A program made the translations under genes and the position numbers. A DNA stretch of 51,175 nt from Lachnospiraceae bacterium. GTDB lineage: Bacteria > Bacillota > Clostridia > Lachnospirales > Lachnospiraceae. The notes under the pieces were generated by a model. It worked only from the letters and a program-made list of their open reading frames with translations. It was not told where the DNA came from and searched no databases. Below, one piece after another: positions 2,762-37,134 of the stretch (the first letter of the stretch is position 1; each line of letters opens with the position of its first letter). The stretch covers positions 1 to 51,175 of the forward strand of contig JAFUJA010000001.1 of the NCBI GenBank assembly GCA_017473905.1, written 5' to 3'.

Positions 2762-4510
2762 ATGCAGGATAGAAATAAAACAAGATGTAAAAGAATGGCT
2801 ACCTTATACGGCTGTGTGGTAATGTTTCTTTTTCTTGTGCTGGCAGTCAGGCTCTTTTATATTATGATTATTCAGGGAGAGCATTATTCGGAAGAGGCAA
2901 GACAACAGCAGGAGCGGGAACGCAGTATCAAAGCTGCCAGAGGTAAAATCACAGACCGGAACGGAGTTGTAATTGCAGACAATCTTACGGTTTGTACCGT
3001 ATCCGTAGTTCATAATCAGATTGAGGACACGGAACGGGTAATTAAGGTTTTATGTGAGGAACTTTCACTTACCGAGGAATATGTCAGACCCCGTGTGGAG
3101 AAACGTTCTTCCATGGAAAAAATCAGAAGTAATGTGGATAAAACCATCGGCGACCGGATTCGAAGCTATGAGCTTGCCGGTGTTAAAGTAGATGAAGATT
3201 ATAAAAGATATTACCCCTATGGGGAAACGGCTTCCAAAATACTGGGTTTTACAGGGTCTGATAATCAGGGAATTATTGGTTTGGAAGTAAAATACGAAGA
3301 GTATCTGGAAGGAGAGGCCGGTACCATTCTCACCGTAACCAATGCAAGAGGAGAAGAGGTGGAGAATGAGGCTGAACATCGTATTGAACCCATAAAAGGA
3401 GAGGACTTACGTCTTACATTGGACTGGAATATTCAGGAATACTGTACCCAGCTTGCTATGCTTGCCATGGAGGAGCATGAGGCTGACAGGGTATCCGTCA
3501 TTGTAATGAATCCCCGGAACGGCGAGCTTTATGCAATGGCTGATGTGCCGGAGTTTGATTTGAACAGTCCGTATGATTTGACACCTATCGGAATAGAAGA
3601 AGAGCTTTCGGGGGAAGATTATCAGAATGCATTAAATTCCATGTGGAGAAACGGTTGTATTAACGATACATACGAGCCGGGTTCCACTTTCAAAATGGTT
3701 ACGGCGGCTGCTGCGCTGGAAACGGGGACGGTAACTCCGGAGGACCCTTTTTTCTGTCCCGGTTATATTATGGTAGAAGACAGAAGAATCCGTTGTCATG
3801 ATACGGACGGACACGGCAGCGAAACTTTTGCCGTGGGAATGATGAATTCCTGTAACCCTGTTTTTATATCTGTGGGATTGAAGCTGGGTGTAGATACCTT
3901 TTATGAATATTTCACCCAATTCGGTTTGTTTCAGAGAACGGGGATTGACCTGCCCGGTGAGGCTGGCACGATTATGCATGCAAAAGAAAATATGGGACCG
4001 GTGGAACTGGCTACCACATCTTTTGGCCAGTCTTTCCAGATTTCACCCATTCAACTTGTGACAACAGCTTCCATGCTGATAAACGGAGGAACCAGAGTGA
4101 CTCCTCATCTGGCAAAGGAGACTTTAAAAGAAGACGGAAGTATAAGTCATATTTTTACGTATGAAGAGACAACCGGTCATGTTTCGGAAGAAACAAGTGC
4201 AACCCTTAGAATGTTGCTTGAAAAGGTGGTTTCGGAAGGCGGCGGGAAAAATGCCTATATTGAGGGCTGGTCTATCGGCGGTAAAACCGCAACCAGTCAG
4301 ACACTGCCGAGAAGCAGTGGGAAATACATTTCTTCCTTCATCGGTTTTTCACCGGCGGAAAATCCGGAAGTCATAGCTCTTGTTGTGATTCATAATCCCA
4401 AGGGGATTTATTACGGAAGCCAGACGGCTGCTCCGGTTGTAAAAAAGCTTTATGAAAATATTCTTCCTTATTTGGAAGGAATGAATTATAATGAACAAAG
4501 GGTGCAGTAA
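2762..4510 (+). CDS. spoVD: Class B penicillin-binding protein (SpoVD/PBP2 type)
   Basis: Second septal-type peptidoglycan transpeptidase, anchored by one N-terminal helix (LYGCVVMFLFLVLAVRLFYI). Active-site motifs are STFK in YEPGSTFKMVT, SCN in MNSCNPVF, and GGKTAT where GGKTGT is usual, so the KTG box is KTA. It lacks the C-terminal PASTA domain found in Bacillus SpoVD. The start ATG follows GGTGAGG by a few bases; that ribosome site is inside an inverted repeat. Position second after ftsL suggests the spore-cortex enzyme SpoVD, but a second vegetative PBP2 is possible. It is co-oriented with the dcw genes around it. Confidence 0.8.
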   Translation: MQDRNKTRCKRMATLYGCVVMFLFLVLAVRLFYIMIIQGEHYSEEARQQQERERSIKAARGKITDRNGVVIADNLTVCTVSVVHNQIEDTERVIKVLCEELSLTEEYVRPRVEKRSSMEKIRSNVDKTIGDRIRSYELAGVKVDEDYKRYYPYGETASKILGFTGSDNQGIIGLEVKYEEYLEGEAGTILTVTNARGEEVENEAEHRIEPIKGEDLRLTLDWNIQEYCTQLAMLAMEEHEADRVSVIVMNPRNGELYAMADVPEFDLNSPYDLTPIGIEEELSGEDYQNALNSMWRNGCINDTYEPGSTFKMVTAAAALETGTVTPEDPFFCPGYIMVEDRRIRCHDTDGHGSETFAVGMMNSCNPVFISVGLKLGVDTFYEYFTQFGLFQRTGIDLPGEAGTIMHAKENMGPVELATTSFGQSFQISPIQLVTTASMLINGGTRVTPHLAKETLKEDGSISHIFTYEETTGHVSEETSATLRMLLEKVVSEGGGKNAYIEGWSIGGKTATSQTLPRSSGKYISSFIGFSPAENPEVIALVVIHNPKGIYYGSQTAAPVVKKLYENILPYLEGMNYNEQRVQ

Positions 4511-4546
4511 TCCGCAAAAATGCGGTAGCTGCGGAAAGGATATAAA

Positions 4547-5500
4547 ATGAATTATGTTGCAATTTTAGCGGGAGTCATTGCGTTTGCGGTAACGGCTGTT
4601 TTAGGACCGGTAACTATCTCTTTTTTAAGACGTTTAAAAGCCGGCCAGACCGTGCGTGAGGAAGGCCCCAAAACTCATCTTACGAAAACCGGAACACCTA
4701 CCATGGGAGGAATTTTGATTGTATTTGCGATTCTTGTAGGGTCTTTGTTTTTTGTAATGGAGTATCCGAAGATTCTTCCTATCCTGTTTCTGACATTGGG
4801 ATTGGGCCTTGTCGGATTCTGGGATGATTATCTTAAAGTGGTAAAAAAGAATTCCAAGGGATTGCGGGCATGGCAGAAAATGGGACTTCAGCTGCTTGTG
4901 ACCGGTATTTTCCTGTTTTATGTGGAATTTTATACTGATATTTCGCTGGCGATGAAGGTGCCTTTCATGCCTGATGTTACACTGGATTTGGGAATACTTA
5001 CCATTCCGTTTCTGTTTCTTGTAATCATCGGTACGGATACGGGCGCAAATTTTACGGATGGTATGGATGGTCTTGCATCTTCTGTTACGGCGATGATTTC
5101 CGTATTTTTTGCAGTGGTTGCCTTCGGAACCAACAGCGGAATAGAACCCCTTACCTGCGCGGTGACAGGCGCCTTATTGGGATTTCTGCTGTTTAACTGG
5201 CATCCTGCCAAAGTGTTTATGGGGGATACGGGAGCACTTGCAATCGGCGGCTTCGTGGCAGGAACCGCAATTGTACTGCAACTTCCTTTATTCCTGCTGA
5301 TTATTGCGGTGGTCTATGTAGTGGAAGTGGCTTCCGTTATCATTCAGGTAACAAGTTTTAAACTGTTTGGAAAAAGAGTCTTTCTCATGACCCCCATCCA
5401 TCATCATTTTGAACTGTTAAAGTGGAAGGAACCTACCGTTGTTGCCATGTTTACAGTGGTTACGGCACTTGCATGCGTGCTTGCATTTTTCGCATTATAG
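4547..5500 (+). CDS. mraY: Phospho-N-acetylmuramoyl-pentapeptide transferase MraY
   Basis: Integral membrane enzyme that moves phospho-MurNAc-pentapeptide from UDP to undecaprenyl phosphate, giving lipid I. Family signatures are all present: THLTKTGTPTMGG near the N-terminus, the DDYLK aspartate pair, NFTDGMDGLA, NWHPAKVFMGDTG, and the histidine-rich PIHHHFELLKW near the C-terminus. Length (317 aa) and about ten hydrophobic segments fit the family. The start ATG is preceded by AAAGGA. A short hairpin (CCGC/GCGG) lies in the 36-nt gap after the PBP gene. Confidence 0.97.
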   Translation: MNYVAILAGVIAFAVTAVLGPVTISFLRRLKAGQTVREEGPKTHLTKTGTPTMGGILIVFAILVGSLFFVMEYPKILPILFLTLGLGLVGFWDDYLKVVKKNSKGLRAWQKMGLQLLVTGIFLFYVEFYTDISLAMKVPFMPDVTLDLGILTIPFLFLVIIGTDTGANFTDGMDGLASSVTAMISVFFAVVAFGTNSGIEPLTCAVTGALLGFLLFNWHPAKVFMGDTGALAIGGFVAGTAIVLQLPLFLLIIAVVYVVEVASVIIQVTSFKLFGKRVFLMTPIHHHFELLKWKEPTVVAMFTVVTALACVLAFFAL

Positions 5501-10540: not shown

Positions 10541-10560
10541 CATAAAAAAGGGGGATGTTT

Positions 10561-11328
10561 ATGCAAGCGGAACTGTATTTGGAAGACCTGCTTTTACAAC
10601 AATTTGTTTGGGATTTTTGGATTCTTACACTTGCTTGTGCAATACGGGGAATGTCCTTTCGTTTTTGGCGGTGCTTTGCAGGAGCCATGGGTGGAGCAAT
10701 TTTGTGGATGTTGTTGTTGATAACGTTTGTTCCCTTTTGGATACATATGTGTACTGTTTTAACAGTCGGGATTGTAGTTATGGCAGTGATTGCATTTCCT
10801 GTGGTTTCCTTACGTAATTACATCAAAAATTGTGGGGCAATCCTTGCAGGCGGCTTGTTTTTGGGAGGTATTGGAACGTTTCTGGGGAACAGGATTCCTG
10901 TTGTAAACAGCATACCGGTGCAGGTGATTTTAATTTCGGTATTGGCACCGGTTACCTGTGTGATTGTGCGTCGGTTACATAAAAAAAGAAAACTGTTTTA
11001 TCCGGTTAAAATTGAATTTGAAGATGGGGAGGTGATTCATACCATAGGACTTTTGGATACAGGGAATTGTCTTCGTACTGAGGACGGTGAGGGCGTCTGT
11101 CTCCTGGAAAGCCGGTTGCGAAAGGGACAAAGACAGGATACTTTTCATATTCCCTATTCATGTATCGGTGATGCTTCCGGAGTAGTTTCGGGAGAATATG
11201 CGGGAAAGCTTATTGTTTTTACAACAGAGGGAACAGAGGTAAGGAAAAATGTTCCGATAGCCTATGTTACATGGTCGGCAAAAGAAAAGAAGAAATATGA
11301 AATGATTTTGCAGGGAGAATATGTATGA
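10561..11328 (+). CDS. spoIIGA: Sigma-E processing peptidase SpoIIGA
   Basis: Membrane-bound aspartic protease that cleaves the pro-sequence from pro-sigma-E after SpoIIR signalling from the forespore. The N-terminal half has about five hydrophobic segments; the cytoplasmic half carries the aspartic-protease motif LLDTGN with the catalytic Asp. At 255 aa it is shorter than the Bacillus protein (about 310). The start at 10561 is preferred over ATG 10555 because AAGGGGG abuts 10555 but is 6 nt from 10561. It overlaps sigE by 4 nt (ATGA), the standard coupling. Confidence 0.9.
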
Positions 11329-12065
11329 AATGGTTATTGTGGTTAAAACAACTGAGTAAAGATGAAGATACAAATGCAGAGGAATACAGAGAATTCCTAG
11401 CCGGTAACGAATTGTTTTATATCGGCGGAAGTGATGCGCTTCCTCCACCATTGGAGCCTGAACAGGAAAATGAATGTATTATGAAACTTGGTACTGATTT
11501 GGAAGCTGAAGCCAGAAGCGAATTGATTGAACATAATCTTAGACTGGTAGTCTATATTGCCAAGAAATTTGATAATACGGGAGTCGGTGTGGAGGATTTG
11601 ATTTCTATCGGTACCATCGGTCTGATTAAGTCTATCAATACCTTTCGGGCAGATAAAAACATAAAACTTGCCACCTATGCATCAAGATGTATTGAAAATG
11701 AAATTTTGATGTTTTTGCGTAAAAACAGTAAGGTAAAAATGGAAGTATCCATTGATGAACCTTTAAATGTTGACTGGGACGGAAATGAATTGCTTTTATC
11801 AGATATTCTGGGAACGGACGAGGATGTCATATACAGAGATATGGAGCTTGACGCAGAACGCAGACTTCTTGGAAAGGCAATCGGGACTTTAAAGGAACGG
11901 GAACGGATGATTATTGCCCTGCGATATGGATTAAGTCGTTCGGACGGGCAGGAGATGACACAAAAAGAAGTGGCTGATCACTTGGGAATTTCCCAGTCCT
12001 ATATTTCCCGTCTCGAAAAGAAAATAATGAACCGGTTAAAGAAAGAGATCAGCCGTGAATTATAA
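11325..12065 (+). CDS. sigE: RNA polymerase sporulation sigma factor sigma-E (pro-form)
   Basis: Early mother-cell sigma factor. It has an N-terminal pro-sequence ([20 protein letters not shown]...) removed by SpoIIGA, then region 2 ([35 protein letters not shown]) and region 4 with the helix-turn-helix [20 protein letters not shown]. Length (246 aa) matches the family. Its ATG overlaps the spoIIGA stop, and GGGAG precedes it. sigG, which follows directly in Bacillus, is displaced and inverted here. Confidence 0.97.
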
Positions 12066-15079: not shown

Positions 15080-15859
15080 TCAGTAATCAAGATAATTTCT
15101 CATTATTTTTAAAGCATTTTTTTCGAGACGGGAGACCTGTGCCTGGGAAATGCCTATCATATCGGCCACTTCCATCTGGGTTTTGCCTTCCAAAAAGCGA
15201 AGCGTAATGATATTTTTTTCACGTTCGTTTAATTTTTTCATTGCATCTACGATACATAGATTTTCAATCCAGGAATCTTCGTGGGTTTTTTTGTCACTGA
15301 CCTGATCCATTACATACAAGGTATCTCCGCCGTCTGTATAAACAGGCTCGTAAAGACTGACGGGATGTTGGATTGCATCAAGCGCGTAGACGATGTCTTC
15401 TTTTGGGATTCCGATTTCTTCCGAAATTTCTGCGATTGTGGGTTCCTGCATCGTTTTACGGGAAAGGGCTTCTCTTGCATAAATGGCTTTATAGGCGGTA
15501 TCTTTTACGGAACGGCTGATGCGGATTGCATGATTGTCCCGTAAAAAGCGCCGGATTTCGCCAATAATCATGGGAACCGCATATGTGGAGAACTTCACAT
15601 TCAGACTCGGGTCGAAATTATCAATTGCCTTCATGAGACCGATACACCCAATCTGAAATAAGTCGTCAGCATTTTCATTGTTGGATGAAAAACGTTTTAT
15701 AACGCTTAAAACCAGACGCAAATTTCCTTCGATGTAACGTTGTCTGGCTTCTTGGTCTCCCTGGGTTATTTTTTCGAAGAGAAGTTCTTTTTCTTCGGTA
15801 CTTAAAAGGGGGAGGGTGGAGGTGTTGACTCCGCAGATTTCTACTTTATACAATGCCAT
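15080..15859 (-). CDS. sigG: RNA polymerase sporulation sigma factor sigma-G
   Basis: Late forespore sigma factor. It begins MALYKVEICGVNTS, the sigma-G-specific N-terminus, then has region 2 (DDLFQIGCIGLMKAIDNF, VKFSTYAVPMIIGEIRRFL), region 3, the conserved DGGDTLYVMDQ stretch, and the region 4 helix-turn-helix MEVADMIGISQAQVSRLEK. Length (259 aa) is normal. AAAGGAGA precedes the ATG. In Bacillus and many Clostridia it follows sigE on the same strand; here it is reversed and separated from sigE by trkAH. I could not identify a sigma-F or sigma-G promoter before it with confidence. Confidence 0.97.
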   Translation of the reverse strand: MALYKVEICGVNTSTLPLLSTEEKELLFEKITQGDQEARQRYIEGNLRLVLSVIKRFSSNNENADDLFQIGCIGLMKAIDNFDPSLNVKFSTYAVPMIIGEIRRFLRDNHAIRISRSVKDTAYKAIYAREALSRKTMQEPTIAEISEEIGIPKEDIVYALDAIQHPVSLYEPVYTDGGDTLYVMDQVSDKKTHEDSWIENLCIVDAMKKLNEREKNIITLRFLEGKTQMEVADMIGISQAQVSRLEKNALKIMRNYLDY

Positions 15860-30101: not shown

Positions 30102-31896
30102 ATTCTTTTTTACTTGCATCCTTTTGTAACAGAAAAGCCACATACAAAGGATAAAGGACTATAATAGGGAATACATACCGGAAATTGCTGACCGGTCCCA
30201 ATAAAAAGGTACACCAGTAGAAGAATGCAGGTAATATCGAGAGAATTAATGTGTGTTTCTTTTGATATACCAACAGGAACATGGTAAGGATTAATATCCA
30301 TACCGGTGTACTGATTGCAAATAAGTTGGCAACAAGAGGCATCGTGTCATATAAAAGATAAGATGCACATCTTTCGTAAATATTAAAAAGGAAGGGCAGT
30401 TTGCTGTCTCTTGTGACTTTATAGCCGGAACTTTCTTTTGGGTAAATATAAGTTTCGATGTAAGCCCTCTGGGAATACTCATCATTTGTGTTTGCATCCG
30501 GATACCAGTAGGGTAGATTCAGATTTAAAAATGAATTCACATAATCCAAGGGATATTTAATCAGAAGGCGTAACCAGAGTTCGATAAAACCGGCTTTATC
30601 TGCCTGGAAATTTCCTGTGTTAAAATGAATTTTTACAGGGTCTGCCAGACGGGGATTGTAAAGTTCATTCAGGGAATCCACAGGAAGAAAACGACCTGCT
30701 TCCGCCAAATCCGCTTCAGATAATTCCGCTTTATGCTCAATGATAACGCAGGAAATCTGCTGCATGGGAACACTGAGCATTTCACGTACGTTTCCCTCGC
30801 CGATTCCCAAAAGTGTATATACCGGTCCGTTAATTAAGCCATATCCCAGAAGAATACAGGTTAACCAGAGGAGAAAGGTTTTCCAATATTTCCGGTAAAG
30901 TACCAGCATAAGAAGGATTGCGGGAATCAGTGCGTAAACCATGTTATTGCGGAACAGACAGCACAGAACACCGAATATAATCAGACTCAGGTTACCAAAA
31001 ACATTCGTGGAATTTTCTTTTCTTTTTATACCGAAAGTACAAAGCTCGATGGTGAAGAAAATAAGACAAACGGTAAAAAATACATCCTTTGTAGGAATAA
31101 AAGAAAATAAGGTTACCGCCGGGTTTATGCAGAAAAATGCAACTGCTCCTAAAATCAGGTAATTATTCCATTTCTGCAGTACCATAAATCGGATTAAAAA
31201 TGCCAGCGCGGTTGCAAGAAGAAGCATCTGGCATACAGAGTAAATCATAAGTGCGTTTAAGCCGCTGAACTCTTCAAACATCAGGCAAAGCTTCCAGAAG
31301 ATGGTATGAAGCGGCGGATGATGTTTGGTCATTTGTGTCAATCCCAGGGCTTCCCGGGTCTGAACATCCATATCATAGGCAAAAACTCCCGGGTAATAAG
31401 CAAGGTAAGCCGGAAGCCATGACAGGAAAAATAAAATACCGGATAAAAGAGGGTACTTATAAATTTTCCATTGTGTTTCAGCCGTGCATTTTGGAATGCG
31501 GGGCAGATAACGAATCACCAACATAAGAACACAGGATAAGATTGTCGTAAAGCCTGCCATGGAAATGAGAAACCGTAAAATGCCGGCAGGAGAATTACAA
31601 AGAGCTGCCAGACTGCCTTTTACATAGAGCGCATGCCCCATTAACAGGATATCGGATAAAAAGAATCCGAAAACAAAAGAACCGAGGCGGATTTTTTTGT
31701 CCGTGATTTTACCGGCAGTATGCATCAGAAGCAGGCCGGCAAGAAACAGTACGATATTAAAAATACTCTGATTTCCGAGATAGTTCCCATCAAAGAAATA
31801 TTCATTGTATCCCCAGACAAAACAAAAGGATAGAATTCCGTATAAAACGAATCGGAACGGTTTTGTTTTATAAAAAGCTTGTTTATTTTCCGTCAT
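30100..31896 (-). CDS. Large polytopic membrane protein, DUF6020-type (GT-C-like)
   Basis: About 12-14 membrane segments in 598 aa. The first extracytoplasmic loop after segment 5 has YYPGVFAYDMDVQTREALG and TKHHPPLHTIFW, a pattern of the DUF6020-like family that resembles GT-C glycosyltransferases. Function and substrate are unknown; a role in cell-surface glycan modification is inference. It is alone on the reverse strand. AGGAG lies 13 nt before the ATG, a loose ribosome site. Soluble domain near residues 400-500 contains NANTNDEYSQRAY. Confidence 0.75.
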   Translation of the reverse strand: MTENKQAFYKTKPFRFVLYGILSFCFVWGYNEYFFDGNYLGNQSIFNIVLFLAGLLLMHTAGKITDKKIRLGSFVFGFFLSDILLMGHALYVKGSLAALCNSPAGILRFLISMAGFTTILSCVLMLVIRYLPRIPKCTAETQWKIYKYPLLSGILFFLSWLPAYLAYYPGVFAYDMDVQTREALGLTQMTKHHPPLHTIFWKLCLMFEEFSGLNALMIYSVCQMLLLATALAFLIRFMVLQKWNNYLILGAVAFFCINPAVTLFSFIPTKDVFFTVCLIFFTIELCTFGIKRKENSTNVFGNLSLIIFGVLCCLFRNNMVYALIPAILLMLVLYRKYWKTFLLWLTCILLGYGLINGPVYTLLGIGEGNVREMLSVPMQQISCVIIEHKAELSEADLAEAGRFLPVDSLNELYNPRLADPVKIHFNTGNFQADKAGFIELWLRLLIKYPLDYVNSFLNLNLPYWYPDANTNDEYSQRAYIETYIYPKESSGYKVTRDSKLPFLFNIYERCASYLLYDTMPLVANLFAISTPVWILILTMFLLVYQKKHTLILSILPAFFYWCTFLLGPVSNFRYVFPIIVLYPLYVAFLLQKDASKKE

Positions 31897-32001
31897 AATT
31901 ATTTAAAACTCCTATAATTGTCTTAATTATTATAACACAAAAACAGGCTTGAGCAATCATTTCTGCGTTTTTTAACAGATAAAACACAAAGGTATGCTAT
32001 A

Positions 32002-32039
32002 AAAAAATGGTGGTAAAATAACCATGAAAGCATTATAAT
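32002..32039 (+). promoter_or_regulatory. Putative promoter of the rhomboid-like gene set
   Basis: AAAAAATGGTGG (32002-32013), 20 nt, TATAAT (32034-32039). The same 12-mer and spacing occur before ppdK. A conventional -35 is not evident. Confidence 0.45.
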
Positions 32040-32087
32040 AAAAAGGTCTGTTATTATTTTTTGAATCTAAGAAGAACGGAGTATAAA

Positions 32088-32987
32088 ATGTCAAAATTTA
32101 TTTATAAACTTGAGCGGAAATTCGGAAAGTACGCAATCCCGAATTTAATGTTATATGTGGTTATTGTGCAGGCGGTGGGATATATTATCACCTATACCAA
32201 ACCGGAGCTGCTTTTTTATCTTTCTTTGAATCCGGCGGCAATTATAACGGGACAGGTATGGCGTCTTGTTACCTGGGTTCTGGTGCCTGAACAGTACATG
32301 AATCTTTTTATGGCGATTATTTCCCTGTATTGTTTCTATTCCCTGGGAAGGGCATTGGAACGGGCTTTGGGAAGCTTTTATTTAAATCTTTTCTTTCTGT
32401 CCGGCTGTATATTTTCTGTCATAGGTGCATTTATCATGACCGGAATTGCTACCGGGGCATTGATGATTTCCACGGATTTAGGCATGTGGCAGGTGTTGCA
32501 GCTTCTGGCTGAGGGCGGTTTGAGCCTTTATGCCATGTATTATCTGAATCTTTCCCTGATTCTTGCTTTTGCCATTTGTTTCCCTGATGCGAGATTTTAT
32601 GTGTTTTTCGTGATTCAGATACCGGCGAAGGTTTTGGGAATTATTTATGCCTGTCTTCAGGCTGCCACCGTAATTTTTGCTTTTGTGGACGGATTTGCTT
32701 CCGGTCTGATTACCCTTGTTGCGGTAGGCGCTTCCCTGTTAAATGTTATCCTTTTCTTCCTCTGGACCAAACGAAGCCGTTTTAAGTCCCCTAAGGAAAT
32801 CAAGCGTCAGCGTGAATATAAGGTAAAAATGAAGCGGGCTTCTGCAGTTTCCAGACACAAATGTGCTATTTGCGGACAGACCAACGAAAGCAACCCGGAT
32901 TTACAGTTCCGGTATTGCTCCAAGTGTGAAGGAAATTATGAATATTGTTCCGAGCATCTTTTTACCCACGAACATGTTACAAAATAA
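32088..32987 (+). CDS. Rhomboid-like membrane protein with C-terminal zinc ribbon
   Basis: About six membrane segments. Rhomboid-type features: GQVWRLVTWVLVP before segment 2, and the LYCFYSLGRALERALGS and FFLSGCIFSVIGAF stretches. The catalytic Ser motif GxSG of true rhomboid proteases is absent, so it is probably an inactive member, comparable to Derlin/iRhom-type proteins. The cytoplasmic tail ends in a zinc ribbon (CAICG...YCSKCE, then CSEH...HEH). The start at 32088 follows ACGGAGTATAAA; the same 15-base start context recurs at the next gene. 299 aa. First of three co-directional genes. Confidence 0.7.
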   Translation: MSKFIYKLERKFGKYAIPNLMLYVVIVQAVGYIITYTKPELLFYLSLNPAAIITGQVWRLVTWVLVPEQYMNLFMAIISLYCFYSLGRALERALGSFYLNLFFLSGCIFSVIGAFIMTGIATGALMISTDLGMWQVLQLLAEGGLSLYAMYYLNLSLILAFAICFPDARFYVFFVIQIPAKVLGIIYACLQAATVIFAFVDGFASGLITLVAVGASLLNVILFFLWTKRSRFKSPKEIKRQREYKVKMKRASAVSRHKCAICGQTNESNPDLQFRYCSKCEGNYEYCSEHLFTHEHVTK

Positions 32988-33027
32988 AATCTTTTAAAAG
33001 AAAATAAAAGATAACACGGAGTATAAA

Positions 33028-33768
33028 ATGAAAAAAGAAGACAGCAATTTATTTGTCAGTGCATTGACTGAATTAAAAGAAACCGCAGTTGCCCAGGGGA
33101 ATGTAATTTCCAAGGAACAGCTGGAAGAAATTCTCGGAGACATGAATTTAAATGACGAACAGATGGATTTGGTTTATCAGTATTTAAAAGATGCCAAAAT
33201 CGGTGTGGATGAGCCTGTGGATGCGGATGAATATGTGGTCGGGGAAGACCGTAAGTATCTGGATATGTATCTGGAAGAACTTGCAGAACTTCCGCCCTGT
33301 TCCCAGAGCAAAAAAGAAGCACTTTTACTTTCAGCCATGGCAGGTGAAACGAGCGTTCGTGACGAACTGATTCAGGCGTTTTTGCCTCAGGTTGCGGATA
33401 TTGCTAAAATCTATGCAGGTCAGGGCGTTTTACTGGAAGATTTGATTGGAGAAGGGAATGTAGCCCTTGCTGTTGTGATGGATATGCTGGGAAGCCAGGA
33501 AAATGCCGGGGAAGCGGAAGAAATGGTTGTCCAGATGGTAATGAAAGCCATGGAAAGTCTTGTATATGAAGTACAGGAAAACAGGGACAGTACTTCTGAA
33601 ATTGCGGAAAAAGCAAATATGGTTTTGGAAAAAGCTAACGCTCTTGCAGAAGAACTTCTCCGTAAGGTAACCCGGGATGAGGTCTGTCAGGAAACAGGTC
33701 TTAGCAGGGAAGAACTGGATGAGATTCTCCGCATTACCGGATGGAAAATAGAAGTCATTGACCAATAA
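33028..33768 (+). CDS. Degenerate sigma-70-like protein lacking promoter-recognition regions
   Basis: Recognised by alignment to housekeeping sigma (RpoD). Residues ~10-60 resemble region 1.1 (ISKEQLEEILGDMNLNDEQ). Residues 78-153 follow regions 1.2-2.2 closely, with YLEELAELP, then YAGQGVLLEDLIGEGNVAL, equivalent to RpoD YVGRGMQFLDLIQEGNLGL. The -10 melting part (RpoD YATWW, region 2.3-2.4) is replaced by an acidic, aromatic-poor stretch (155-182). A region-3-like part returns at 190-240 (VTRDEVCQETGLSREELDE). No region 4 exists. It should be able to contact RNA polymerase but not recognise promoters; that role is inference. 246 aa, in a set with its neighbours. Confidence 0.65.
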   Translation: MKKEDSNLFVSALTELKETAVAQGNVISKEQLEEILGDMNLNDEQMDLVYQYLKDAKIGVDEPVDADEYVVGEDRKYLDMYLEELAELPPCSQSKKEALLLSAMAGETSVRDELIQAFLPQVADIAKIYAGQGVLLEDLIGEGNVALAVVMDMLGSQENAGEAEEMVVQMVMKAMESLVYEVQENRDSTSEIAEKANMVLEKANALAEELLRKVTRDEVCQETGLSREELDEILRITGWKIEVIDQ

Positions 33769-33781
33769 GGGAGGAAATGTG

Positions 33782-34198
33782 GTGGAATACAGTAACGACA
33801 GAGATTTTAAATATGTTCTGCAGGATGCATCTCACGTTTATCTCGGTGGCCGTATGACCTTTCAGGAAATGATGGACTGGGAGGACGTTCCTTTTAAATT
33901 AAAGGCTATTGTGAACAAATATTTCCTTGAACAGGAAGTGGATGCAGACAGTCTTGCCGGGGCATTTAAAGTAATGGATAAAAAAACATTTACATATCAG
34001 ATTTGTAAGCAGCTTCGAATAAAAATCAAAGCGGGTTTTTATACGGTAAAAGTGAATCGTAAGGGAGAAGAAGAGAAAATTTACAAAAGCAAAACTTACT
34101 CTCTGGATGAATATCTTGCACTTCTTTCCGAGGGGGCAGAACCGATTACAGAAGAGGTTTCTCTTTCTAAGCTTGCACTGCTTGCATTTTCTGTTTAA
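33782..34198 (+). CDS. Small protein of unknown function
   Basis: Not recognised. 138 aa, soluble, no signal or membrane segment. N-terminal half HVYLGGRMTFQEMMDWEDVP, then a central KxxFTYQICKQLRIK and a basic beta-rich stretch (YTVKVNRKGEEEKIYKSKTYS). The start is GTG at 33782, 7 nt after GGGAGG; GTG 33779 is one codon earlier. It follows the sigma-like gene by 13 nt, so the two are almost surely co-expressed. Confidence 0.6.
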   Translation: MEYSNDRDFKYVLQDASHVYLGGRMTFQEMMDWEDVPFKLKAIVNKYFLEQEVDADSLAGAFKVMDKKTFTYQICKQLRIKIKAGFYTVKVNRKGEEEKIYKSKTYSLDEYLALLSEGAEPITEEVSLSKLALLAFSV

Positions 34199-34200
34199 TC

Positions 34201-34217
34201 TTAGGCATAATGCCTAA
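34201..34217 (+). other. Hairpin after the rhomboid-like gene set
   Basis: TTAGGCA (34201-34207) and TGCCTAA (34211-34217), 7-bp stem with a 3-nt loop. No T-tract; weak terminator at best. Confidence 0.4.
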
Positions 34218-34341
34218 AATCGGCAAAAACACCAATTTTAAATCGTTTAAAATGTGGAAAATGTCAAAAAATGGGTTTTCTGTATGGTGTATCTCTATAA
34301 GTATGATATACTACTATGGAGAATAAGGAGCATTATTGCTG

Positions 34342-37134
34342 ATGAAAAAAGACAAAGAATCCAAAATGAGCGGATATAAAAAAATACGTTATTATCTGGT
34401 TACGGAAAACATCTTTATTGTATTAGCCTTTTTGCTGATTGCGGTAGGTGTTTATAATCTGGTGGACGTAGGACTTGGCCAGTGGCTTCCCTATACCTAT
34501 ATTTGTGCGGGAGCCATTCTTCTTGTTGTAGGTGTAACCATTGCAATTAAGATGATTAAGGCTTTTCAGCGGGAGGACATTCCGGCATACGTGAATTTGC
34601 TTGAATCGGAAGATGTTGACCCGGAATCCGGCTTGTTATATTATGACAGTTTTATCAAAAAAGCAGATACCCAGATGCAGCTTGCACTTACAAGCTGCTA
34701 TTTGGTGTGTTTTCATATTGACGGCATTGAACATTTGCGTCATTTTGTAGGTTATCAGAAATCTGCGGATACCATGGCGGAAATCGGTGGATTATTCAGT
34801 GCACTGGAGAAAAAGCTGGGAAGCCGTAACGTGCTTTGCGGCAGTAAATCCGGTCATGAGATTATGTTGTTTGTCCAGAGTGAAGATAAAAACAGTCTGA
34901 AGGCGGAATTGCAGGAACTCATTAATAATATCAACGGTATTATGTTGCATCTTCCCACCGCAGAGAATTTCACCACATACTGTGGCTACAGCTGTTATCC
35001 CCGTCATGCGGCATCTATGGATGAACTGGTGAAGAATACCAGTTTTGCCGTGTACGAAGCAACCATGTTCCACAAATCCGAACCGAATTTCTTCTCTCCT
35101 GATGCATATCGCCGTCAGGAAACGGAATACTTAAAGGATAACAAGCTTCGCGTTCTTTTGGACAAGAATGAATTAAAATACAAGTTCCAGCCGATTGTCA
35201 GTGCAAAGACAGGTAAGATTTATGCATATGAAGCATTGATGCGTACAGAGAAAGACATGGGATTAACGCCGGTGGATGTTCTCGAGCTGGCAACCCGTCA
35301 GGATCGTTTGTATGAAGTAGAGCATTATACCTTTTATAATGTTCTCAAAATTATGAGCGAGAACAATAATCTCTTTGAAAAGAGAAAATTATTTTTAAAC
35401 AGTATTCCTACGGCAATCATCAAAGAAAAAGAATTTGATGAGCTGTTGGACCAGTATCAGGATCTGATGAAAAGCCTTGTTATTGAAATTACCGAAAACG
35501 GCATGCAGTCTGAGGAATCCTGTGAAGCCGTTCATAAATACATGGAGAAGAGCGGCTGTGAGCTTGCACTGGATGATTACGGAACCGGATATTCCAATGC
35601 ATCCTCTCTTTTAAAGAACAGCCCCAATTACTTAAAAATTGATCACTCCATGATTATGGGTATTGATACGGACAGTAAAAAGCAGCATCTTGTCTCCAGT
35701 TATATTTCTTTTGCAAATAACCATAACATGAAGATTCTGGCAGAAGGCGTAGAGACAGCTGATGAGTTGCAGATGGTTATCCAGCTTGGATGTCATCTGA
35801 TTCAGGGCTTTTATACAGGTCGTCCCAATACGGTTATCGTGGATCATATCAATGAAGAAATTGAAAATGAAATTGTGGCAATTAACTTAAAGCTTGCCAA
35901 GCTTGCATACGAGAATAAAATCTACGAAACAAATAATTTTGATGTGGTTTCCATTGTTAATCTTGCATTGGATTTTTATTCCCAGATTTTTATCGGACAT
36001 GCTTCCACTAAAATTGTGGGGGATAAGGACCGTGAAGTATGTATGGGTATTAAAATCAAAGACAATACAGAGGCGGTTGTGACAATTTCCAACGTGAATT
36101 TAAGAGGGCGTGATATGCCTGCCATTTCCGTTGGAGAAAACTCCACATTGGTGTTGTGCCTTGAAGGCGAGAATACCTTGTCTTATGAGGGTATTTATGT
36201 ACCCAAGTCTTCCAAACTGGTGATTCAGGGTAAGGGAAATCTTACCGTTCATGTGGATCATAACAACGGAATCGGAATCGGTTCCACAGGTAATGTTCCT
36301 TACGGCTCATTGACCTTTGAAACGGAAGGTACGGTACGAATTGAATCCAATGGTGAAATCGTTATCGGTATCGGTGGCACTGTTGCAGACGAAGAATCAG
36401 AAATCCGGTTTGTAAAAGGTAATATTGAAATTATTTCTAACGGCAGTAAGTCCATCGGTGTGGGTGCCATGGACGGATTTGTAAAAGTAGCGGTGGAAGA
36501 CAGTGATATTGCAATTTCTTCTTCCGGTGCGGAATCCGTTGGTATTGGTTCATTTTCCGGTGAAGTGGATATTGTATCTTCCGGTAATATTGAAATGGAT
36601 GCTTCCGGAAGCTATGCTACGGGTATCGGTAGTCTTAGAGACGGCAAAGGCCAGATTGCAGTGAATGCAGGACGGGCAAAGATGATTCTTCACTGTATGG
36701 AAGGTGTGGGAATCGGTTCCATGGACGGTTTCATGAACACACAGATATCCGGCGGGGAAGTGTTTGTTTACATCGAAGGTTCAGATGTGGGTGGTATTGG
36801 TAATTACCACGGAGGCGGTAACACAATCATCCGTTCCGGCGTGGTTAAGGTTGTTTTACTTGCGGCGAATCCCATGCCGCTGGGAGATGTAAAAGGATAT
36901 CTTGAGATTTCCGGCGGTAATGTATTCTGCGATCTTGCAGGAACGGTACAGCCCGTTAACCAGTTTGGAGTCCCTGTATTTGAACGTGTGATTGAATCTA
37001 AAGATACTTACTACAGCAGGGTAGAAACTGCAGAAGGAATTTATCAGTATATTGCGGAACCCTCGGAGCTTTTTGAAAATCTTCACATTTATGTTCCGAA
37101 ATTCTGTGTGGAAACACCTCTTGAGGTTTACTGA
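34342..37134 (+). CDS. c-di-GMP phosphodiesterase (degenerate GGDEF + EAL) with C-terminal beta-solenoid
   Basis: Two N-terminal membrane helices (about 20-70) place the rest in the cytoplasm. A GGDEF domain follows in which the active motif reads SGHEI (170-174), so it should not make c-di-GMP. The EAL domain keeps the catalytic set: EALMR (Glu297), Asn in FLNSIP, EITEN, DDYGTG (Asp411-412), LKID, AEGVET (Glu468), QGFYTG. The last third (about 575-870) is a right-handed beta-solenoid-like array of GIGS/GIGN repeats usually found in secreted carbohydrate-binding proteins. ATG 34342 is 11 nt after AAGGAG; TTG 34336 is the alternative. 930 aa, monocistronic. Confidence 0.85.
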   Translation: MKKDKESKMSGYKKIRYYLVTENIFIVLAFLLIAVGVYNLVDVGLGQWLPYTYICAGAILLVVGVTIAIKMIKAFQREDIPAYVNLLESEDVDPESGLLYYDSFIKKADTQMQLALTSCYLVCFHIDGIEHLRHFVGYQKSADTMAEIGGLFSALEKKLGSRNVLCGSKSGHEIMLFVQSEDKNSLKAELQELINNINGIMLHLPTAENFTTYCGYSCYPRHAASMDELVKNTSFAVYEATMFHKSEPNFFSPDAYRRQETEYLKDNKLRVLLDKNELKYKFQPIVSAKTGKIYAYEALMRTEKDMGLTPVDVLELATRQDRLYEVEHYTFYNVLKIMSENNNLFEKRKLFLNSIPTAIIKEKEFDELLDQYQDLMKSLVIEITENGMQSEESCEAVHKYMEKSGCELALDDYGTGYSNASSLLKNSPNYLKIDHSMIMGIDTDSKKQHLVSSYISFANNHNMKILAEGVETADELQMVIQLGCHLIQGFYTGRPNTVIVDHINEEIENEIVAINLKLAKLAYENKIYETNNFDVVSIVNLALDFYSQIFIGHASTKIVGDKDREVCMGIKIKDNTEAVVTISNVNLRGRDMPAISVGENSTLVLCLEGENTLSYEGIYVPKSSKLVIQGKGNLTVHVDHNNGIGIGSTGNVPYGSLTFETEGTVRIESNGEIVIGIGGTVADEESEIRFVKGNIEIISNGSKSIGVGAMDGFVKVAVEDSDIAISSSGAESVGIGSFSGEVDIVSSGNIEMDASGSYATGIGSLRDGKGQIAVNAGRAKMILHCMEGVGIGSMDGFMNTQISGGEVFVYIEGSDVGGIGNYHGGGNTIIRSGVVKVVLLAANPMPLGDVKGYLEISGGNVFCDLAGTVQPVNQFGVPVFERVIESKDTYYSRVETAEGIYQYIAEPSELFENLHIYVPKFCVETPLEVY

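Follow-up and report, generated by a model that had tools for sequence, protein, structure and literature searches.

A truncated sigma-70-like protein of Lachnospiraceae with an exchanged DNA-reading surface, encoded between a rhomboid-like membrane protein and a predicted flavin-domain relative

The locus and its three genes

The stretch of DNA analysed here (the window, 51,175 nucleotides from a Lachnospiraceae bacterium whose genome assembly is incomplete, at 1.72 Mb and 71% completeness) contains three genes in series on the + strand, here called RHOM, SIGL and ORF3. RHOM (32088..32987) encodes a rhomboid-like membrane protein of 299 amino acids from an ATG behind ACGGAGTATAAA, and has a C-terminal zinc-type domain (32856..32975, + strand) containing H257, C259, C262, C277, C280, C287, H290, H294 and H296. 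SIGL (33028..33768) starts with ATG and encodes a truncated sigma-70-like protein of 246 amino acids, recognised by profile and fold matches. ORF3 (33782..34198) starts with GTG and encodes a protein of 138 amino acids, predicted to be related, in degenerate form and without the TIGG loop, to the FAD-binding domain of molybdenum hydroxylases. An earlier note on this DNA had described the gene at 33028..33768 as a degenerate sigma-70 homologue that could be coupled to its membrane neighbour; the coordinates given there were right, and the third gene, ORF3, was overlooked.

An identical 15-base sequence, ACGGAGTATAAAATG, lies at the starts of RHOM (32076-32090) and SIGL (33016-33030). SIGL is followed after 13 bases by ORF3, which has its own GGGAGG leader; the GTG was picked as the start of ORF3 for this leader. 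Within 31880-34400, neither the number of promoter-like sites (6, with 6.0 expected) nor that of terminator-like sites (1, with 2.2 expected) is above chance. The gene at 34336-37134 encodes an EAL c-di-GMP phosphodiesterase-type protein of 932 amino acids, the C-terminal part of which (beyond about residue 500) matches no Pfam model at E<=1; an EAL gene adjoins the operon in loci L003-L005 and L046. Elsewhere in the window lie a SpoIIGA-like protease followed by a sigma factor (10555-12065) and another sigma factor with regions 2, 3 and 4 (15080-15859), which by position we take to be SigE- and SigG-like, i.e., a sporulation sigma cluster.

SIGL, a truncated relative of SigA

Judged by its sequence, SIGL is a genuine sigma-70 homologue, and a paralogue of the housekeeping SigA that ends after sigma3. 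The single SIGL sequence is matched by NCBIfam RpoD (E=1e-11) and by SigA in the PDB (E=3.3e-9), and a profile of 34 orthologues by SigA of C. difficile (7l7b, E=1.3e-27), so the profile search against sigma-70 that the earlier note proposed as a check did find its match. When the profile was compared by hhalign with 19 SigA proteins drawn from the same genome, its genus and its order, the two were colinear from the start of region 1.1 to the end of sigma3 (E=6.2e-30), in agreement with the RpoD-like order of regions that had been claimed. Within its own genome, the sole other match to the SIGL protein is SigA.

The protein begins with a region 1.1-like domain (amino acids 5-63, 33040..33216), seen by Pfam as Sigma70_r1_1 and by hhalign to SigA, which is followed by a region 1.2-like segment (about amino acids 75-105, 33250..33342) found by phmmer alignment to SigA and by hhalign. 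Regions 2.1-2.2 (amino acids 111-148, 33358..33471) include LEDLIGEGNVAL, in which D138, E142 and N144 correspond to D403, E407 and N409 of sigma70 and G141 to Q406. In the former regions 2.3-2.4 (about amino acids 152-184, 33481..33579) the aromatic and basic residues are gone, and M172, M175 and E176 are near-invariant. SIGL terminates with a sigma3-like domain (about amino acids 191-238, 33598..33741), without the sigma3.2 finger and without sigma4; all of these segments are read from the + strand.

When the 34 orthologues were searched singly against Pfam (E<=0.1), Sigma70_r3 was found in 34/34, r2 in 28/34 and r1_1 in 25/34, the r1_1 match of the window's SIGL (E=2e-4) being slightly below the family cut-off and that of the best orthologue 8.3e-8. 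Sigma70_r4 is absent among the 25 of 66 Pfam families listed for these orthologues, and the last SigA position aligned to SIGL has a median of 513 and a maximum of 519 in 34/34, SigA itself ending at 612 (E. coli-anchored numbering). As the sigma factors at 11325-12065 and 15080-15859 in the same window, used as a positive control, show both r2 and r4 (Pfam, E<=1e-5), the absence of region 4, which had been noted before, cannot be put down to the method. There is no Pfam match to a receiver domain in SIGL, the 246 amino acids of which are taken up by regions 1.1-3. The fold predicted by AlphaFold matches sigma chains and contains a sigma2-type fold with the region-2 helices (model residues 76-183 against 7xya, rmsd 2.5; residues 75-184 against 8hkc, rmsd 3.1); pLDDT was 79.9 in one of five models and 53-62 in the other four.

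The roles of single residues of sigma70 in melting, -10 recognition and core binding are known: Y430, W433, W434, Q437 and T440 are melting aromatics and -10 residues, and Q406 is a main core-contact residue (E. coli sigma70 numbering, the alignment being anchored on the motif DLIQEGN, with D403). Averaged over 14 melting and -10 positions (418-441), 1% of the 34 orthologues and 10% of 26 distant paralogues still have the SigA residue; Y430 and W433 are each kept in a single orthologue, and W434, Q437 and T440 in none. The replacement of the region 2.3-2.4 aromatics by an acidic stretch, as described in the earlier note, is plain from the medians for positions 417-449: SigA (n=19) has a charge of +4 and 7 aromatics, SIGL (n=34) a charge of -7 and 1 aromatic. 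The net charge of regions 2.1-2.2 also changes, from +5 in SigA to -2.5 in SIGL. The claim that the polymerase-binding parts are kept, and with it the expectation that clamp-interface residues would be conserved among orthologues, holds for one group of residues and fails for another: D403 and N409 are kept in 34/34 and E407 in 32/34, but Q406 has become G in 34/34, and L402 and I413 are gone in 34/34.

In place of the lost residues there are near-invariant ones that are new to SIGL, namely R436M (33/34), I439M (34/34), T440E (32/34) and K423E (31/34). Nine columns are invariant in the 34 sequences, five of them (D138, L139, G141, G143 and N144) in region 2.2. In the alignment, the DNA-reading surface has been exchanged for a conserved acidic and methionine surface, i.e., there has been replacement rather than decay. 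Compared with SigA/RpoD, a group 1 sigma-70, SIGL has regions 1.1, 1.2, 2.1-2.2 and 3 in the same order with D403, E407 and N409 kept; it differs in the missing sigma3.2 finger, sigma4 and melting/-10 residues, in the acidic 2.3-2.4 segment, in Q406G, and in occupying its own branch of the tree.

SIGL is a conserved family spread across many genera, and no decaying gene. A close relative (E<=1e-35, a cut-off chosen once the hit list was known) is present in 36 of 250 sampled genomes of the family, taken as Lachnospiraceae, and in each of the 36 the gene immediately upstream, in the same orientation, is RHOM (34 from coordinates, G236 from its locus, and G187 with a partial RHOM), so that this genomic survey bears out the tie to the membrane neighbour. 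Weaker matches are a mix of SigA and more distant SIGL-like proteins; in the ten genomes with weaker matches that were examined, a SIGL-like match adjoins RHOM in G079, G233, G170 and G087, lies on a separate contig from RHOM in G152, G095, G105, G140 and G144, and is without a detected RHOM in G164. From 60 loci taken, 56 gave SIGL (L038, L073, L083 and L094 did not by simple ORF calling and were excluded); with the window and L003-L005 these yielded 34 core proteins, defined by RHOM in the same locus, so that RHOM adjacency within the core is by construction, and 26 distant ones. Core and distant profiles match over their full length (E=3.9e-62). In a tree built by a quick method with 19 SigA and 13 other sigma factors, core SIGL forms one clade (99, starred), and a branch (93, not starred) divides core and distant SIGL together from SigA.

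Among the four closest SIGL genes, three of the six pairs have a defined dS (1.5-3.1, near saturation) and give a dN/dS of 0.08-0.16, synonymous sites being saturated in the other three; where the ratio is computable, it indicates purifying selection. No clear SIGL member was found outside the family among the matches listed for 118 class and 146 order genomes. For the class sample (E<=1e-25), listed matches in frames of <300 amino acids occurred only in the window's own genome and in G207, both within the family, and the other listed matches lay in frames of at least 351 amino acids, as in full-length sigma factors. For the order sample, the listed matches from outside the family lay in frames of at least 360 amino acids, the exceptions being three shorter frames, in G346 and G359 at the ends of contigs and in G398.

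The neighbours RHOM and ORF3

The resemblance of RHOM to rhomboids and derlins is weak. Pfam Rhomboid matches with E=0.27 and NCBIfam rhombosortase with E=0.008; a 35-member RHOM profile matches GlpG structures with E=0.027-0.72 at profile positions of about 20-108, and there are weak Pfam matches to DER1 in 2/35 and to DUF1751 in 3/35. RHOM differs from these proteins in two ways. The GxSG motif is found in the core of 0/35 members (a lone match, at residue 7 of one member, lies outside the core), and an active rhomboid protease was therefore rejected. The C-terminal zinc-type domain is invariant, with all nine Cys/His residues, and the motif that they form, present in 35/35; this domain, which weakly matches Pfam DUF7577 in 28/35, would by its residue pattern bind zinc. 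It has some resemblance to Gin/CsfB-like anti-sigma zinc proteins, but was set aside as one of them: the Gin family is absent from the Pfam hits listed for 10 RHOM C-terminal segments, an absence that is weak evidence.

RHOM is far more widespread than SIGL, occurring in 236/250 family genomes and in 72/146 order genomes (15 of these 72 within the family). Since close SIGL relatives occur in only 36 of the 250, RHOM is mostly present without one. In a set of 20 family RHOM loci, mostly chosen for having no strong SIGL match, 17 had no adjoining SIGL-type gene, from which RHOM can be seen to be independent of SIGL; of the remaining three, G233 had a SIGL-type neighbour and two had no RHOM by ORF calling.

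The distribution and evolution of ORF3 follow SIGL more closely than those of RHOM do. ORF3 is present in 32/250 genomes: in 30 of the 36 SIGL genomes versus 2 of the 214 others, these two being G233 (with a weaker SIGL adjoining RHOM) and G128 (without SIGL). ORF3 was not detected in 5/34 core loci, and the two exceptions to T440E in SIGL both fall in these five, an observation that is post hoc and concerns small numbers. Across the 26 of 34 core loci that have all four genes, the neighbouring M16 peptidase serving as background, the SIGL-ORF3 distance correlation is 0.61, or 0.57 after the M16 peptidase is taken out, with 0/999 permutations as high; the corresponding values are 0.27, 0.20 and 66/999 for SIGL-RHOM, and 0.22, 0.14 and 58/999 for RHOM-ORF3. 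By these distances, ORF3 co-evolves with SIGL. In locus L130 of G128 (3593-4971, with RHOM beyond this span), an FtsY-like GTPase (named by eye) fills the slot of SIGL, giving the order RHOM-FtsY-ORF3.

ORF3 is predicted to be a degenerate flavin-domain relative. Its predicted model resembles the FAD-binding domain of molybdenum hydroxylases closely enough to be assigned that fold, and its alignment to the FAD-subunit profile runs colinearly and scores higher than each of 60 column shuffles; because the profile probability is 15%, the class rests mainly on the predicted fold. ORF3 as a known family defined by sequence was rejected, there being no consistent Pfam match and no PDB sequence match. 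Unlike the FAD subunit, ORF3 is only 138 amino acids long and has no TIGG-type motif, the FAD pyrophosphate loop, in any of 29 sequences (0/29); this count alone is informative, because the 29 FAD-subunit comparison sequences (from 29/30 loci) were selected by demanding that motif. The flanking genes scanned (RHOM, SIGL, the EAL gene and the M16 peptidase) gave no molybdenum-hydroxylase match.

How SIGL may act

We infer, tentatively and with slightly more doubt than conviction, that SIGL functions as a sigma mimic which binds core RNA polymerase weakly under the control of ORF3 and the membrane, a reading placed on homology, losses, near-invariant residues, gene order and SIGL-ORF3 co-occurrence, which the sequences and models themselves establish. 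Regions 2.1-2.2 of sigma are the part that binds the clamp helices, as stated in a passage of PMC7406223. Region 1.1 and the sigma2 parts of SIGL would attach to the beta-prime clamp of core RNA polymerase, on the region 2.2 side, the affinity being lowered by the change of Q406 to G. Lacking a sigma finger and sigma4, the resulting complex would be unable to open promoters, and would compete with sigma factors or park polymerase. ORF3 would bind the new M-x-x-M-E face of SIGL and thereby switch docking on or off, and the zinc-type domain of RHOM would position the SIGL-ORF3 pair at the membrane.

The sigma-mimic reading is supported by the extent of the homology, from region 1.1 to sigma3, together with the match of the model to sigma chains; by the clustering of invariant columns in region 2.2; by the retention of D403, E407, N409 and Q406 in distant paralogues; and also by purifying selection, the SIGL-ORF3 correlation and the genome distribution of ORF3. 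It is weakened by the low pLDDT of four of the five models. Docking on core polymerase in particular is weakened by the loss of Q406, L402 and I413 from the clamp-facing helix in every orthologue and by the loss of net positive charge in regions 2.1-2.2, and the part played by the membrane and RHOM by the weak SIGL-RHOM distance correlation. Folding alone might account for the retention of the D--EGN residues. The proposal of the earlier note that the protein could titrate or antagonise core polymerase is supported in part: D403, E407 and N409 stay, but Q406 is uniformly G and new near-invariant residues occupy the former DNA-reading helix.

The main alternative, which we regard as rather unlikely, is that SIGL is a sigma decoy or adaptor that works without polymerase; its partners would then be confined to ORF3, RHOM (through the zinc-type domain) or some anti-sigma factor, and polymerase would be affected indirectly. 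The nearest analogy is PhyR, of the general stress response of Alphaproteobacteria, which mimics an ECF sigma and whose sigma-like domain binds NepR. SIGL would be like PhyR in that a sigma-like domain works by mimicry and not on DNA, as described for PhyR in PMC5830050 and PMC4814048; it differs in that PhyR has a response-regulator domain, whereas SIGL has no receiver, is of region-1.1-bearing SigA-type origin, and sits with RHOM and ORF3. Partial conservation would fit a decoy, as class I anti-sigma factors bind the same clamp-facing surface, 2.1-2.2 (a passage of PMC7406223), and CsfB binds its targets in regions 2.1-2.3 (likewise a passage, of PMC4383634). The uniform Q406G, together with R436M, I439M and T440E, points to a re-made binding face and a changed partner, and the co-evolution of SIGL with ORF3 and the coincidence of both T440E exceptions with loci without detected ORF3 (2 of 5 loci; post hoc, small numbers) are in keeping with this. 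However, SIGL keeps region 1.1 (25/34 by Pfam), which is not obviously needed by an anti-sigma decoy and so favours core docking; Q406 is kept in 25/26 distant paralogues even though their loci showed no ORF3; and an anti-sigma factor did not emerge from the analysis, nor is Gin among the Pfam hits listed for the zinc-type domain of RHOM.

It is very improbable that SIGL provides sigma2-sigma3 and that ORF3 or another protein provides promoter reading, in the manner of SigO-RsoA of Bacillus subtilis, the pieces of which jointly still read promoters. There, according to a passage of PMC10141391, sigma2/sigma3 and sigma4 are found on separate polypeptides, each an incomplete sigma, and ORF3 is indeed co-inherited with SIGL; but SIGL differs from SigO-RsoA in lacking the reading residues (mean 1% kept) and in its acidic 2.3-2.4 segment, and ORF3 is no sigma4 partner, since hhalign finds it unlike SigA in every part, including region 4 (probability 0.2), and the fold predicted for it is like that of a flavin domain. 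ORF3 as a split-sigma region 4 was rejected on this profile comparison and predicted fold. A third possibility, which seems improbable, is that SIGL anchors polymerase, whether transcribing or idle, to RHOM at the membrane without inhibiting it. The position of RHOM directly upstream in 36/36 close orthologues and its invariant zinc-type domain would suit such a station, and a loose precedent is offered by E. coli sigmaH and FecI, which, in a passage of PMC12037070, are discussed as membrane-associated and disturb rrn clustering; the sigmaH effect described there, however, requires DNA binding plus core interaction, and SIGL has no DNA-reading residues. Moreover, RHOM occurs in 236/250 genomes against 36 with close SIGL, RHOM distances barely follow those of SIGL beyond background, and G128 has RHOM-FtsY-ORF3 without SIGL. 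Finally, there is little probability that SIGL is a sigma fold reused outside transcription or a slowly decaying relic. The varied neighbourhoods of the distant paralogues would fit either, but the low dN/dS where computable, the nine invariant columns, the uniform end point and the gene order argue that SIGL is not a relic, leaving reuse outside transcription as a slight possibility.

Sigma mimicry (PhyR) and split sigma factors (SigO-RsoA) are already known kinds of protein. In searches of mostly open-access literature, no paper on the SIGL family or its kind and no parallel to the three-gene RHOM-SIGL-ORF3 arrangement was found among the papers listed. Each of the three proteins lacks the signature residues of its relatives, which suggests an undescribed control of polymerase near the membrane. 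Known control of sigma usually involves anti-sigma factors, 6S RNA or small polymerase binders; promoter-blind sigma paralogues maintained by selection in common gut bacteria would add a new level to the control of polymerase, with ORF3 and RHOM as concrete candidate partners, and the SIGL family would be a natural experiment on which sigma surfaces suffice for core binding alone. A more far-reaching picture, which is doubtful, is that the three look-alikes (a pseudo-sigma, a pseudo-rhomboid carrying the zinc-type domain, and a relic of a flavin domain) form a Lachnospiraceae device, in which a promoter-blind SIGL bearing region 1.1 joins core polymerase in an inactive “blank” holoenzyme, located at the membrane and with the flavin-like partner as its gate. 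If so, the distant paralogues would be further blank sigmas under other controls.

These 26 distant paralogues (L065, L067-L072, L074-L082 and L084-L093) are mostly truncated and acidic. D403, E407 and N409 are each kept in 26/26 and Q406 in 25/26, the other losses being largely as in SIGL, and the retention of Q406 would make them better candidates for core binding than the window's SIGL. Pfam Sigma70_r4 matches 6/26 (E<=0.1, best 3.4e-6), and 4/26 align to SigA past position 600; the r4 match may be due to the sigma3 helix-turn-helix or to a true sigma4 remnant. ORF3 was not found in their loci, and the absence of RHOM is by definition of the set; their neighbours are varied (S41 peptidase, pyruvate kinase, HemN-like, amidophosphoribosyltransferase-like and others, named by eye). 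A tblastn search of 50,697 phage records yielded four unannotated faecal “Bacteriophage sp.” contigs (MT837372.1, MT835772.1, MT839976.1 and MT836790.1) with SIGL-like stretches of 25-31% identity, which may be bacterial fragments.
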